In this document: piece by piece, positions 21,656 through 31,160 of the stretch | Position numbering within the stretch: the stretch's first letter is position 1 | Layout of the letters: each line of letters begins with the position of its first letter | NCBI RefSeq assembly: GCF_010093815.1 | Contig: NW_022985559.1 | Coordinates: 1,191,117-1,255,116 of the forward strand | Origin: Pseudovirgaria hyperparasitica | Lineage: Eukaryota; Ascomycota; Dothideomycetes; Acrospermales; Acrospermaceae | Reading direction: 5' to 3' | DNA length: 64,000 bases | Position numbers and translations under genes: made by a program | Notes under the pieces: model-generated | The model's database searches: none | What the model was told of the DNA's origin: nothing | Seen by the model: the letters and a program-made list of their open reading frames with translations, nothing else

Positions 21656-22762
21656 ATGCTTCTCCTCGACTACCAGAATGTGCTCATTGAATCGCTGCTG
21701 AAAGACCGCTTTGCTGGGTAAGATCCTTACGTCTTTGCTCTCCTGCGGACACATTCAAGTTGCTAACAACTCTACAGAGCTGCTCCTATTAACATTGATC
21801 AGATAGTCTCAGACTTTGACAATGTCACGTTCCATATATCTACCCCTGAAACCAAGACCAAAATTCTCATCTCGATACGTGTGAAGTGCTTCCCAGAGCT
21901 AGTGCAATATGGCGCTCAGGCCGTCTTAGAAAGAGAATATGGGCCATACATAGTGTCGCCGGAGTCAGGGTATGACTTCTCGGTCCAGGTGGATTTAGAG
22001 GCATTACCAGAGAGTCAAGAGGAGAAAGATGACCTGATTCGCCGTATATCACTATTGAAGCGCAATGCGATGGCTGCTCCATTCGAGCAGGCTTTTGACG
22101 AGTTCAAGGCATTACAAGAGGAGGCATCGAAGTACACATCTGAACAAGCACCACAGGGTGTGCAAGAGGGAGGAGAGGTTCGGGCAATTCACTACCGTGA
22201 AGCGGAGGCCATCTTCGTAAAGGCCAGTCATGATAGAGTAACTGTGATATTCAGCACCATCTTCTCCGACGAGACGGATCGCATCTTCGGAAAGGTGTTT
22301 CTCCAGGAATTCGTGGATGCGAGGAGAAGGGCCATTCAAAACGCACCACAGGTACTCTTCCGGAATGACCCTCCGCTCGAGCTACAAGGTGTTCCCGGTA
22401 TTGATGCAAGTGGCTCGGCCAAGATTGGCTACATTACGTTTGGTGAGTTTGTCGAAGTGCTTGTTGGTGGATGCTGATCAAGTAGTTCTCTTCCCACGCC
22501 ATCTAGCGGATCAGCGTCGCGAAGATGTTATATCACACATACAAACGTTCAGAGATTACTTCCACTATCACATCAAAGCATCAAAGGTAAGTGCTACCGA
22601 CCTTCCATTGACTTGCACTATTGACCGTTGGAGGCATATATTCATTCGAGGATGCGCCGGCGCACGGCCGACTTCCTCCAAGTACTGCGCAGAGCCAGGC
22701 CCGAGGCCGAAGAGAAGGAGCGCAAGACAGCAAGTGGACGGACGTTCAAGGTGCAGGCTTAA
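21656..22762 (+). CDS. ARC35: Arp2/3 complex subunit 2, p34-Arc (318 aa)
   Basis: Four exons: 21656-21717, 21778-22442, 22486-22586 and 22634-22762, all GT-AG with phase kept. The N-terminus MLLLDYQNVLIESLLKDRF and the later stretch HYREAEAIFVKASHDRVTVIF are characteristic of ARPC2, the 34-kDa subunit that with ARPC4 forms the structural core of the Arp2/3 complex. The complex nucleates branched actin at patches during endocytosis. The C-terminus ends in the long basic helix HSRMRRRTADFLQVLRRARP, which in the family packs against ARPC4. Length fits the family (about 300-340 aa). The last two introns are only 43 and 47 nt. Confidence 0.95.
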
Positions 22763-24953: not shown

Positions 24954-27900
24954 ATGTCTCTCTGCGCCCGCGCAGGTCGCGCAACTTCAAAGCTTCTGCA
25001 GCAACCCACCACATATCGACTTTCCCGGCGATGCCTTAATACATCCGCTGCTCATCCTCGGCCAGTTTTCGTCTGCAGGTCGCAGCTGAATTCGCCCAAA
25101 AGTCAATTGCGATCTTTCACAAGATCTGCAGTCGCTAGGAATGCCTCTCAAGAGGCCCCGAACTCTCAAGCATACTTGAACAGTGGTGCAATCTCAGGGG
25201 CTAGGAATCTTGTCAACGTAAAGAAGGTACTCGTCATTGGCAGCGGTGGCCTCAGTATTGGGCAAGCTGGTGAATTTGACTACTCTGGTGAGTCACGAGT
25301 GGGCGATCAGGCCTGGTCACAATATTAGCACCGATATAACTTACCTCACTTTGGCATATAACTACAACAGTATACGAGACCAATAGCTAACGAGTGCAAC
25401 GCATAGGGTCCCAAGCTCTCAAAGCCCTCAAGGAAGCGGGCGTTCAGTCGGTTCTCATTAACCCTAACATCGCTACCATCCAGACCTCCCACGTCCTAGC
25501 AGATCAAATCTATTATCTACCAGTCACCCCTGAATACGTCACATATGTCATTGAAAAAGAAAGACCAGATGGCATCTTCCTCAGCTTTGGTGGCCAGACC
25601 GCCCTTAATTTGGGTGTGCGCATGAACAAGATGGGTATCTTCGAGCGATACGGAGTGCAAGTTCTTGGTACGAGCATCAAGACTTTGGAGACCAGCGAGG
25701 ACCGAGACCTCTTCGCCCAAGCACTCAACGAGATCAATATTCCTATTGCAGAGTCCATTGCCGTTTCGACCATCGATGAGGCCCTCAAAGCTGCAAGCAA
25801 GATCGGGTACCCCATTATTGTGCGTGCTGCTTATGCCCTTGGTGGTCTAGGATCTGGCTTCGCAAACAATGAAGAAGAACTTCGAGATCTGTCTGCTCGC
25901 TCACTTACCCTCTCTCCTCAAATTCTGGTCGAGAAATCCCTGCGAGGCTGGAAGGAGGCTGAATATGAAGTGGTACGCGATGCCAGTGACAACTGTATCA
26001 CTGTGTGTAATATGGAAAACTTTGACCCCCTTGGCGTTCACACTGGTGACAGCATCGTCGTGTCTCCCAGTCAGACTTTCAGTGACGAGGAATACCACAT
26101 GCTCAGGTCTGCGGCCATCAAGATTGTCCGCCACCTAGGCGTTGTAGGCGAATGTAATGTGCAATATGCTCTGCAACCCGATGGTCTCGACTACAGGGTC
26201 ATCGAAGTCAATGCCCGTCTCTCCAGGTCTTCGGCTCTTGCATCCAAGGCTACTGGCTACCCCCTGGCCTACACCGCAGCCAAAATCGGTCTTGGTCACA
26301 CTCTTCCTGAACTACCAAACGCCGTGACAAAAACAACAACTGCAAACTTCGAGCCTAGTTTGGATTACATCGTGACCAAGATGCCTCGATGGGATCTCAG
26401 CAAATTCCAGAACGTCAAGCGCGATATCGGAAGTTCGATGAAGTCTGTCGGCGAGGTAATGGCCATTGGAAGGACGTTTGAAGAATCGTTCCAGAAGGCT
26501 TGTCGACAGGTTGACCCTAGGTTCCTCGGCTTCCAAGGCGACAAATTCGACGATCTTGATGAAACCCTCAGGAACCCGACGGATCGCAGATGGCTCGCCG
26601 TTGGTCAAGCTATGTTCCACGAGGGCTATTCTGTGGACAAGGTCCATGACTTGACCAAGATTGACAAGTGGTTCCTGTACAAGCTGCAGAATATTGTTGA
26701 TTGCACCAACGAGCTGCAGGAAATTGGCAGCCTCTTCGGCCTCCGACAAGAGATCATTCTCAAGGCCAAGAAGCTGGGTTTCTCTGATAAGCAAATCGCC
26801 AAGGCTGTCAACAGCACCGAGGACGAGGTCCGCGCTCGCAGGAAGAGCTTTGGTATCAAGCCTTGGGTCAAGAAGATTGACACTCTTGCTGCTGAATTTC
26901 CAGCGGATACTAACTATCTCTATACTACTTATAATGCCAGTTCTCACGATGTCACTTTCGACGATCATGGAGTTATTGTACTTGGGAGCGGTGTCTACCG
27001 TATTGGCAGCTCCGTCGAATTCGACTGGTGTGCTGTCAATGCGACCCTGTCGCTGAACAAACTCGGCAAGAGGACCGTTATGATCAATGTGAGTCGAAAT
27101 GCATATATTGTATTTCTCAAGTCTCGCCATCCCCGGACCCCTTTTGCTTCTCTACGACATTGCTCGCTCTTTTCTTCGATGGATATCTTCTTTCCTTCCT
27201 CACTTCATTTCATTACGTTTGTGCACAACATCGTCGCACAGTAGATGTTTTCTCAATTTTGTCCATTCGCTAACTTGAATCATAGTGTAAGCCTTCTCCC
27301 CATCACATCATTGACCCCATAATCCCCTCACCCGGGGCACGATTCTGGAATGCCTGGTCACCGTATTGCGTTCCTGCCGGATACCGGATATCCGAAGCAA
27401 CATCCCCATCTGTATCGATTACATCAATTGCCCGTTCCCAGTCCAATGCCTCTAACCAAATCCCTGCCACTGAGTATCGCACATCAATTCCCGTCCCTGG
27501 AAATTGTCAAAGCATCTGGCTATCGTCAACAATCACTTCAATCATCATCATGGCTACCGTTGCCCTGAATTTGTCCCCATCTCGCCGCGATATTGTTATC
27601 TACCGGGCTCCCTACTCACTTCCAAGCCATTTGTTCATTTGTTTCCTCTTGCAACGTATAGCTAACTTTGCGCAGACAATCCAGAAACCTATAGTACTGA
27701 CTTCGACGTCGCCGACAGACTGTACTTTGAGGAGCTGAGCTATGAGCGGGTGATGGATATCTATGAGATGGAATCTGCCACCGGTGTAGTAGTATCTGTC
27801 GGAGGCCAGCTCCCCCAGAACATCGCTCTCAAGCTTCAGGAGGATGGCAAAGCGAAGGTTCTGGGCACAAACCCCAACGACATTGACAAGGCCGAGGACC

Positions 27901-29214
27901 GACACAAGTTCTCGCAGATTCTCGACTCGATCGGTGTTGATCAGCCTGCGTGGAAGGAGCTTACTTCGTTCCAAGAGGCTAAAGAATTTGCCAATTCTGT
28001 CAGCTATCCGGTCCTGGTACGCCCTAGCTACGTGCTCTCTGGTGCTGCCATGACCGTCATTCACTCAGAAAGTGAGCTGGAAGAGAAGTTGACAGCTGCG
28101 AGCAACGTCTCTCCTGACCACCCTGTCGTCATCACCAAGTTTATCGAGGGTGCCCAGGAGATTGATGTTGATGGTGTTGCGTCAAATGGCGAGCTACTTA
28201 TCCACGCCGTCAGCGAACACATTGAAAATGCGGGCGTTCACTCTGGAGATGCCACATTGGTGCTACCACCGGCCTCTCTTTCCGAGGATATCATCAAGCG
28301 CGTCAAGGAAATTGCTCAGAAGGTCGCCAAGGCTTGGAGTATCACTGGACCTTTTAACATGCAGATCATCAAGGCTGAGGACCCAGAAGGTGGCGAGCCG
28401 GCGCTCAAGGTCATCGAATGCAATCTTCGTGCCTCTCGATCGTTCCCCTTTGTCAGCAAGGTCTTGGGTACCAACTTCATTGATGTTGCTACCAAGGCTC
28501 TTGTTGGTAAGGATGTTCCTGGACCTGTCGACCCGATGGCGGAGAAGAGAGATTATCTTGCGACCAAGGTGCCTCAATTTTCGTGGACCCGTCTCGCTGG
28601 TGCGGACCCATACCTGGGCGTTGAGATGGCTAGCACGGGTGAGATGGCTTGCTTCGGGACGAACCTTGTCGAAGCCTACTGGGCCTCTATTCAGTCCACG
28701 ATGAACTTCCGCATGCCTGAGCCCGGGGAGGGTCTCCTGTTTGGAGGCGATATCAGTGCGCCCCACCTGGCCAAGATTGTAGACTACATCAACCCGTTGG
28801 GCTACAAGCTGTATGCCGCAAACGAGGAGGTGAAGCAACATCTCGAGCAGGGATCCAAGGACAACAGCGTGAGCGTCGAAGTGATTGAATTCCCCAAGCA
28901 GGACAAGCGTGCGCTGCGCGAAGTCTTTGAGAAGTACGACATCCGCGGAGTCTTTAACTTGGCCAAGGTCCGCGCGAGCAGCTTGGTGGATGAGGACTAC
29001 GTTATGAGGAGGAACGCGGTCGACTTTGGCGTTCCATTATTCATGGAGCCACAAGTAAGTTTTGGACTCTGACATGTTTGCACGCGCGTATTAACGACCC
29101 AACCAGACCGCTGTGCTTTTCGCGCGATGCATGAGCGAGAAGCTCCCCAGGAAGGAAGGTATACCCCCAGAAGTGCGCCCGTGGACCGACTTTGTCGGCG
29201 GCAAAGTGATCTGA
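24954..29214 (+). CDS. CPA2: Carbamoyl-phosphate synthase, arginine-specific, large chain, mitochondrial (1167 aa)
   Basis: Exons: 24954-25287, 25407-27088, 27286 (one nucleotide), 27676-29054, 29107-29214. The enzyme makes carbamoyl phosphate from ammonia, bicarbonate and ATP for arginine synthesis. The first ~65 residues are rich in Arg, Ser and Ala with few acids, a mitochondrial targeting peptide ([20 protein letters not shown]). Two homologous synthetase halves follow, each with a pre-ATP-grasp and an ATP-grasp domain: half one begins [20 protein letters not shown], half two [20 protein letters not shown]. Both end with an E-N/C-N-[AL]-R signature ([40 protein letters not shown]). A shortened C-terminal regulatory (MGS-like) domain follows, as in yeast Cpa2 (1118 aa). 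The alternative, a pyrimidine CAD-type protein, is excluded because no glutaminase or aspartate transcarbamoylase is fused. The central splicing is unusual and is discussed as a finding. Confidence 0.95.
27286..27286 (+). other. CPA2: Inferred one-nucleotide exon of CPA2
   Basis: Exon 2 ends ...ATG ATC AAT at 27088, followed by donor GTGAGT. Coding sequence resumes at 27676 with AC AAT CCA GAA ACC. A direct join puts this out of frame. Between them lie two complete introns, 27089-27285 and 27287-27675, each with a GCTAAC branch site near its end, separated by a single T at 27286. Including that T gives AAT TAC AAT CCA GAA ACC, i.e. N-Y-N-P-E-T, the conserved motif of this enzyme (N-[CY]-N-P-E-T). 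Confidence 0.8.
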
Positions 29215-29402: not shown

Positions 29403-29494
29403 ATGCCCTATCAACGAGTGATTCAATGCCCTATCAACGAGTGATTCAATGCCCTATCAACGAGTGATTCAATGCCCTATTAACGAGTGATTCA
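29403..29494. repeat. Minisatellite, 23-bp unit x 4
   Basis: Four adjacent 23-bp copies at 29403, 29426, 29449 and 29472. Each begins ATGCCCTATC and ends CGAGTGATTCA; the fourth differs by one base (ATTAACG for ATCAACG). It lies ~190 bp after the CPA2 stop, so may be in or near its 3' UTR. Confidence 0.95.
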
Positions 29495-29704
29495 ACAGTA
29501 CGGTTCTTGCTGTTCCACTTATCTTCGTGCAAATGCCCTTTGTCTGTGACCGATTGAAGGAGCAGAGAGAGATTCAAAGCACTCGGACTCATACACACAT
29601 ATTTACAACATCAACAGCAAGAAGTCGTCAATACCTCCAGCCCTCCCCCCAACAAAAAGAGATGCTAATAATAATAGACACTCACCTCAATTCCGTCCCA
29701 TCGC

Positions 29705-31160
29705 CTAGAATTTCCGCCCGGCAGGAAACGACAAGACGCTCTGACGACAAGAGGGAAATGTGATTACTTACCCCATTTCGATTTTGCTTATATAGGCCCG
29801 TGAGGCGGTTGATTCACGTCGCTAGCAAGAGTCTAGCGCCTGAGAATTCCCCCCCTGCTGGTACTGGTAGTAAACGACAAGACGCTCAAGTATGGAGAAA
29901 GGGGGGGTTGGGGGAAGAATAGGGTTACCCTTCCTTTTTGAATCAACGGGTTGGGATGTCATAGGGCAGTCAATTTCACTTTACGACTGAATAGAGTCTA
30001 GCGCCATAAATCCCCCCGCGGAAAACGACTAGACGTTCGACGACGGAGGGGGGGATAGATATTACCCTTTAAGTTTAGGACTAAGGGTTCTAATAGGTCT
30101 GTTCTATAATATAATGGGGATTTATATTATTTCGGTGGTGCGGTTCACTCTATTTTTATAATTCACTACCCTATCCGTGCTAGCGCATGAAATCCCCCCG
30201 CGAAAAATAACTAGACGTTCAACGATGAACACGCTATTAGATTACCCTTTCTATACTTAAGGGAGGTGCGCTATAGGGTAGGTAGGGTAGGTAGGTAGAT
30301 AGTCTATTCACTCTATTTTTATAATTCACTACCTTATCCGGCTTAGCGCTATAAATCCCACCGCGGAAAACGAGTAGACGTTCGATGATAAACATGCTAT
30401 GAGATTACCCTTTTTAAACTTAAGGGAGATACCCTATAGGGTGGATAGATAGGTAGGTAGGTAGGTAGATAGGTAGATAGGTAGATAAGTATTCTATTCA
30501 CTCTATTCTTATACTCCCCCACCCAATCCGTGTACTTTCCCATAGAAAAAACAACACGACGTTCAACGATAGAGTTAGTATTAGATTACCCTTTTTAAAC
30601 TTAGGGGAGGTACCCTATAGGGTAGGTAGGTAGGTAGATAGGTAGATAATTCACTCTATTTTTATAATTCACTACCCTATCCGTCCTAGCGCTATAAATT
30701 CCCCTATAAAAAAGGACTAGACGTTCGACGGTATACATGCTATTAGATTACCCTTTCTAAACTTAAGGGAGGTGCGCTATAGGGTAGGTGGGTAGGTAGG
30801 TAGGTAGTCTATTCACTCTATTCTTATACTCCCTAACCCAAATCCATCCTAGCTCCCGCCGTTCCCCGTGAAAAACGACACGACGTTCAACGATAGAGGG
30901 GGTCCTAGGAATTCCCTATTTCGAAGTAATCGCTATAATTTCACTCTATTCTTATACTCCCCCACCTAATCCATCCTAGCTCCCGTAGTCCCCCGCGAGA
31001 AACGACTAGACGTTCGATGATAAAGGGTGTCCTAGGAATTCCCTTTTTCAAAGTGATTACTATAATTTCACTCTATTCTTACACTCCCCCACCCAAATCC
31101 GTCCTAGCTCCCGCAGTCCCCCGTGAAAAAAACGACACGACATTCAACGATGGAGGGGAA
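29705..31160. repeat. Degenerate satellite array, about ten monomers
   Basis: A core ACTAGACGTTCGACGATG or its sister form ACACGACGTTCAACGATAG recurs at about 29725, 29880, 30031, 30213, 30376, 30557, 30719, 30881, 31009 and 31137. Full monomers carry in order: a CCCCGCGAAAAACGAC segment, the GACGTTC core, GATTACCCTTTTTAAACTTA, the palindrome TACCCTATAGGGTA, a GGTAGGTAGATAG microsatellite of variable length, ATTCACTCTATTTTTATA, and CCTATCCGTCCTAGCGC. Spacing is ~160-182 bp in the middle and ~128 bp in the last monomers, which lack the palindrome and GGTA tract. No coding potential. Not a family I know. Confidence 0.9.

Follow-up and report, generated by a model that had tools for sequence, protein, structure and literature searches.

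A predicted one-nucleotide exon between two introns of a fungal carbamoyl-phosphate synthase gene

A 64,000-nucleotide stretch of the genome of the ascomycete Pseudovirgaria hyperparasitica (NCBI RefSeq assembly GCF_010093815.1, contig NW_022985559.1, positions 1,191,117 to 1,255,116 of the forward strand), termed the window and used here for all coordinates, harbors at 24954-29214 (+ strand) a gene for the large subunit of carbamoyl-phosphate synthase, whose coding sequence is interrupted after 27088 and resumes at 27676. The question raised by this locus is how the intervening gap is closed in the messenger RNA. Direct joining of 27088 to 27676 breaks the frame, as the original prediction had claimed, and leads to a stop at codon 693. 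It was therein proposed that the gap consists of two complete introns separated by the single nucleotide T27286, and its coordinates proved correct throughout, both on direct reading and on scripted splicing.

The identification of the gene as a carbamoyl-phosphate synthase was borne out by the profile TIGR01369 (carbamoyl-phosphate synthase large subunit), which was matched at 1474.1 bits against a curated cut-off of 1027 and almost over its entire length, with model positions 5-1052 of 1052 corresponding to protein residues 88-1141 of 1167. The five-exon coding sequence (24954-25287, 25407-27088, 27286, 27676-29054 and 29107-29214) comprises 3504 nt and, with T27286 included, is translated into 1167 amino acids with zero internal stops; the nearest solved structures are those of human CPS1 (1215 bits) and Escherichia coli CarB (795 bits). 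Coding exon 1 (24954-25287) carries the start codon, a probable mitochondrial presequence and the beginning of the first synthetase half, where the presequence is suggested by the character of the N-terminal 87 residues lying outside the TIGR01369 match. It is followed by the ordinary intron 1 (25288-25406; 119 nt, GTGAGT...GCTAAC...ATAG) and by coding exon 2 (25407-27088), which closes with the codons ATG ATC AAT. Beyond the gap, coding exon 4 (27676-29054) opens with AC AAT CCA GAA ACC and encodes the second synthetase half, and the last ordinary intron (29055-29106; 52 nt, GTAAGT...ATTAAC...CCAG) precedes the last coding exon with the stop codon (29107-29214), all of these features being located on the + strand. 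Since the profile covers residues 88-1141 of the 1167, neither a glutaminase nor an aspartate transcarbamylase domain could be accommodated as a fusion, and the protein is, by length only, a free large subunit. This would fit the fungal enzyme of arginine synthesis, in which the large subunit is free and which we take to be of the CPA2/arg-3 type.

Inspection of the gap revealed the arrangement TAG-T-GTAAGC at 27283-27292, in which a single base stands between the AG of an acceptor and the GT of a donor. The upstream intron, designated as 2a (27089-27285, +, 197 nt), reads GTGAGT ... CGCTAACTTGAATCATAG with CTAAC at 27270-27274 and a terminal TAG, while the downstream intron, designated as 2b (27287-27675, +, 389 nt), reads GTAAGC ... 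TAGCTAACTTTGCGCAG with CTAAC at 27662-27666 and a terminal CAG. Each of them carries its own good donor, branch site and YAG acceptor, in agreement with the earlier description of two complete introns flanking T27286. When 2a and 2b were compared with five other introns, the seven together being drawn from three genes of the window, they resembled the others in the kind of their splice signals, and the distance from the branch A to the end of the AG was 12 nt in 2a and 10 nt in 2b versus 11, 8, 16, 16 and 12 or 34 in the other five. Intron 2b is the longest and 2a the second longest of the seven, the remainder measuring 43-119 nt, and the predicted pairing of U1 with their donors (-5.5 kcal/mol for 2a; -5.3 or -4.3 for 2b) is weaker than that of the ordinary donors of the same gene (-9.2 and -6.8 kcal/mol).

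The possibilities that 2a and 2b are related in sequence, or that they represent a repeated intron element, were considered as well and rejected: matches between the two did not exceed 14 nt, and the window contains no second copy of either, short matches of at most 21 nt excepted. A 22-nt inverted repeat with 73% complementarity links the end of exon 2 (27066-27087) with the segment immediately 5' of the second branch site (27631-27652), which is probably a product of chance.

The coding need for the additional base is evident from the protein family. With T27286 retained as the first base of the codon TAC for Tyr673, the junction reads Asn672-Tyr-Asn-Pro-Glu-Thr, and the spliced junction predicted from the DNA is ATGATCAAT-T-ACAATCC. 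The expectation that this would reproduce the N-Y-N-P-E-T motif was upheld, because the motif is ungapped with T27286, and human CPS1 and E. coli CarB, both of which read NCNPET at the junction, align through it without a gap. A wider alignment was assembled from 85 loci, namely 80 bacterial or archaeal loci (the best of 589 genome stretches in a profile scan), four viral contigs from a second, profile-based viral scan, and one locus, L001, from a viral-contig scan with the whole protein. N-x-N-P-E-T is ungapped in 84 of these 85 loci, a count that is inflated because the NPET motif served as a search pattern in the genome scan behind the 80 loci, where [MV][VI]N[CY]NPET was one of the two patterns used; the middle residue is Y in 47 of the 84, C in 25, S in eight, N in three and F in one. 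Other patterns had retrieved the four viral loci of the second scan, and these all read NCNPET (4/4). The 85th locus is uninformative for the motif, as it was aligned through the first half and is cut off at the contig end. It represents a side observation in itself, in that L001:5001-5870 of an uncultured viral contig encodes a truncated first-half stretch of carbamoyl-phosphate synthase with 64% identity to the fungal protein over 290 aa. In the fungal gene, T27286 is thus required for the reading frame as well as for the conserved motif.

Whether any other arrangement could serve equally well was addressed by two enumerations. In the first, the first donor and the last acceptor were fixed, both introns were held to at least 45 nt, and every in-frame AG-exon-GT solution was collected and scored on three signals, namely a CTRAY branch site, a YAG acceptor and a donor that agrees with at least three of the four positions preferred after GT. 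Only one of the 14 internal exons so obtained combines all three signals, and this is T27286, the donor of which agrees at 4/4 positions. A longer internal exon within the gap, with a length of 1 mod 3, would be offered in principle by the 13 further in-frame solutions, but none of them (0/13) unites donor, branch site and YAG, and in each of those listed (11 of the 13, with lengths between 16 and 148) the ungapped motif would gain residues, which renders such an exon extremely improbable.

The second enumeration was concerned with single introns of at least 40 nt with GT or GC at the start and AG at the end, in-frame and stop-free, starting at 27031-27286 and allowing the coding sequence to resume at 27286-27739. 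Among the 43 solutions found, 0/43 give MIN-x-NPET without an inserted or lost residue. The nearest to the family motif is an intron from the donor at 27093 (GTCGAA) to the acceptor at 27675, which keeps the frame and alters the length by one residue (N-V-N-N-P-E-T). This single intron is nevertheless regarded as highly improbable, in that its donor agrees with 0/4 of the positions preferred after GT, its predicted pairing with U1 amounts to -2.5 kcal/mol, and the residue it adds would fall at a site that is ungapped in all 84 informative loci. The single-base exon of the original prediction is accordingly the sole solution that fits in both enumerations (1/14 internal exons; 0/43 single introns).

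The unusual exon would no longer be required if the gap were one 587-nt intron (27089-27675) accompanied by a one-base assembly error or residing in a frame-shifted dead gene. This explanation would also need a branch site followed by YAG-N-GTRAGY to have arisen independently, by chance, within the same intron, the frequency of which was estimated in several ways. In dinucleotide shuffles of the intron interior (27095-27655), YAG-N-GTRAGY appeared in 11/20000 and together with a branch site in 0/20000, while a second shuffle method gave 2/1500 and 0/1500, respectively. Markov sequences of intron composition contained the pattern in 23/20000 cases and with the branch site in 0/20000, whereas those of the same length and whole-window composition contained it in 298/20000 and 32/20000. 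The figures derived from the intron sequence are lower because AG is scarce there, with 10 per 560 nt in the intron compared with about 36 in the window, and all of the chance figures are best-case support, since the pattern was picked after the site had been seen. Moreover, the chance base would also have to restore the tyrosine of the family, and the remaining frame is unbroken across 1167 codons, so that an assembly error or a dead gene is considered very unlikely. Taken alone, the 10-mer YAG-N-GTRAGY was discarded as evidence, with 3.56 expected by chance and two observed in the 64 kb window; the weight for T27286 lies in the combination of branch site, position, phase and motif, and independent weight is provided by the retained base restoring the exact frame and the family residue.

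On the strength of this sequence anatomy, T27286 is most probably a true, constitutive one-nucleotide exon between two U2-type introns, each recognised by intron definition, to which reading a probability of roughly 0.88 is assigned. According to this one-nucleotide-exon reading, two ordinary U2-type introns would be separated by one base within a highly conserved motif, which belongs to the second synthetase half, and each would be recognised across itself through its own donor, branch site and acceptor. In filamentous Ascomycota the pairing of splice sites is described as occurring across introns (PMC6616335), and a one-base exon therefore would need no exon definition. The original prediction had reasoned that the introns must be removed stepwise on the ground that exon-spanning factors cannot define 1 nt; this reason falls away, as such factors are unneeded under intron pairing as described in the same source (PMC6616335). 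A different basis for stepwise removal is suggested by the acceptor AG of 2a (27284-27285) overlapping the U1 region of the 2b donor, for which reason both could hardly be engaged together. The two splicing events would thus be mutually exclusive in time, and that part of the earlier claim may stand, while the specific order of 2a before 2b was not upheld, because the pre-mRNA contains both introns in complete form, so that on paper either may go first. If 27089-27285 were removed first, AATT|GTAAGC would be left as the donor; if 27287-27675 were removed first, TAG|TAC would be left as the acceptor; and both orders would converge on AAT-T-AC, encoding Asn-Tyr-Asn. The order is not settled by the predicted U1 pairing of the 2b donor, which amounts to -5.3 kcal/mol while the pre-mRNA is intact and to -4.3 once 2a has been removed. 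Donors rebuilt at exon junctions are reported to be repressed by the exon junction complex in human cells (PMC6224609), and if a similar repression operated in this fungus, it would be avoided by removing 2b first.

Failure of either step is predicted to have distinct consequences. Skipping of T27286 through direct joining of 27088 to 27676, which would presumably be rare, would shift the frame towards the early stop at codon 693, whereas retention of 2a would lead to a stop at codon 724. Intron 2b is stop-free in the frame entered after removal of 2a, a property shared by 31/5000 mononucleotide shuffles, and its retention alone would therefore prolong the protein as far as a stop at codon 823. 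It is conceivable that the one-nucleotide exon is real and is used as a switch, in which skipping of T would yield a frame-shifted mRNA, probably degraded by NMD, and would thereby tune the enzyme level. The position of the stop, at codon 693 of 1167, would suit such a role, as would the placement of the second donor, after removal of 2a, at a new exon junction, the type of site repressed by the exon junction complex in human cells (PMC6224609); the one-nucleotide exon of plant APC11 is, on the other hand, described as constitutive (PMC4674806), and a switch is judged unlikely.

The tandem introns invite comparison with stwintrons, in which a nested intron splits a splice signal. Two adjoining fungal introns that would be removed stepwise are common to 2a/2b and to the [D1,2] and [D5,6] stwintrons described with successive splicing (PMC6616335, PMC5639578, PMC9024468, PMC12403724). 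In those accounts, however, the internal intron splits a signal of the external intron, whereas the donor, branch site and acceptor of both 2a and 2b are unsplit in the pre-mRNA and one base stays in the mRNA. Because no signal is split, 2a/2b is not a stwintron, as the original prediction had already distinguished; by the definition given in the source (PMC6616335), the term would apply only if exon position -1 were counted as part of the donor, and we hold this classification to be highly improbable. Recursive-splicing ratchet points, as described in PMC8605326, likewise share with 2a/2b an acceptor facing a donor and stepwise removal, but there the two sites abut and the mRNA need not keep any base, while AG-T-GT leaves one coding base. 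The AG here is not directly followed by GT, and the site is not a ratchet point because one base is retained.

The original prediction knew of one plant report of a one-nucleotide exon, a view that proved too narrow, as plant VPS55, Fusarium CYP621A, a Candida snoRNA and fungal mitochondrial cases are on record besides APC11. The closest counterpart is the one-nucleotide exon of CYP621A in Fusarium, reported by Nelson and Syed in 2026 with SRA reads from two species and with orthologs across many Fusarium species, and called by its authors the first for a fungal gene (PMC12940212). As described there, it is fungal, nuclear and protein-coding, with one frame-essential base between two introns within a conserved motif, as at T27286; it differs in belonging to a P450 gene, in its base (G in AG-G-GT) and in a total gap of 139 nt in F. 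graminearum (PMC12940212). A 2016 paper describes a single base exon (G) in the snR57-55-61 snoRNA polycistron of the Candida parapsilosis group, which is likewise a fungal single base between introns with two removal orders and the same outcome, whereas its host transcript is non-coding, with no frame or motif at stake, and nested as well as zero-length recursive splicing is also involved (PMC5033589). In the Ophiostoma mitochondrial genome, a 2025 paper reports the rnl-576/rnl-577 single-nucleotide exon and cites a similar layout in Ceratocystis; one base (A) again lies between two fungal introns, but the gene encodes mitochondrial rRNA and the introns are of group II rather than spliceosomal (PMC12308204).

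Among plants, the exon of Arabidopsis APC11 resembles T27286 in consisting of one base, in being constitutive and in rescuing the reading frame of a conserved protein, and differs in its kingdom, in its base (A) and in having been proven with cDNA and reporter mutants (PMC4674806). The VPS55 microexon also contributes a single coding base and is followed by a good GTRAGT donor, but is described as conserved in diverse land plants, some lineages showing its inclusion as well as its loss through intron retention (PMC8831610). In the matched portion of PMC8208691, the searched term occurs solely where the Arabidopsis paper is cited. None of the literature matches listed reports a carbamoyl-phosphate synthase gene with a one-nucleotide exon, most subscription papers having lain outside the search. 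With plant and fungal cases in print, T27286 would therefore add to the fungal protein-coding examples one from an unrelated, central gene.

The surroundings of the gene include ARPC2 and a gene for an SNase-domain protein, and the introns of the window are short, with YTRAY branch sites, all of which gives the window a fungal character. The neighbouring ARPC2 (p34-Arc) gene contains the shortest of the seven introns compared (22443-22485; 43 nt, GTGAGT...GCTGAT...GTAG). A tandem repeat with a 23-nt unit (ATGCCCTATCAACGAGTGATTCA), present in four copies at 29403-29495, lies some 190 nt beyond the stop codon, and two arrays with units of about 162-163 bp and TAGG/GGTA runs extend over 30144-30897, possibly representing a minisatellite or a decayed repeat.

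Correct reading of this gene for an arginine-making enzyme requires that one letter be kept between adjacent introns, and T27286 would thereby join a very small number of known exons of minimal size. If the exon is true, its presence in a conserved fungal enzyme would suggest that one-base exons recur and are overlooked by annotation, with missed ones leaving central genes with wrong gene models. A broader interpretation is offered tentatively, and all of its parts would have to hold jointly: that the exon originated independently in a central metabolic gene, one-nucleotide exons being recurrent and mostly unannotated in filamentous fungi; that such exons arise where introns end up one base apart and the motif is too conserved for any other repair; and that the two splicing steps are mutually exclusive and may take place in either order, with skipping of T as a possible off-switch. 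The T27286 locus would, if the exon is true, provide a simple natural test of how the spliceosome handles an overlapping acceptor and donor, with intron definition at its limit.
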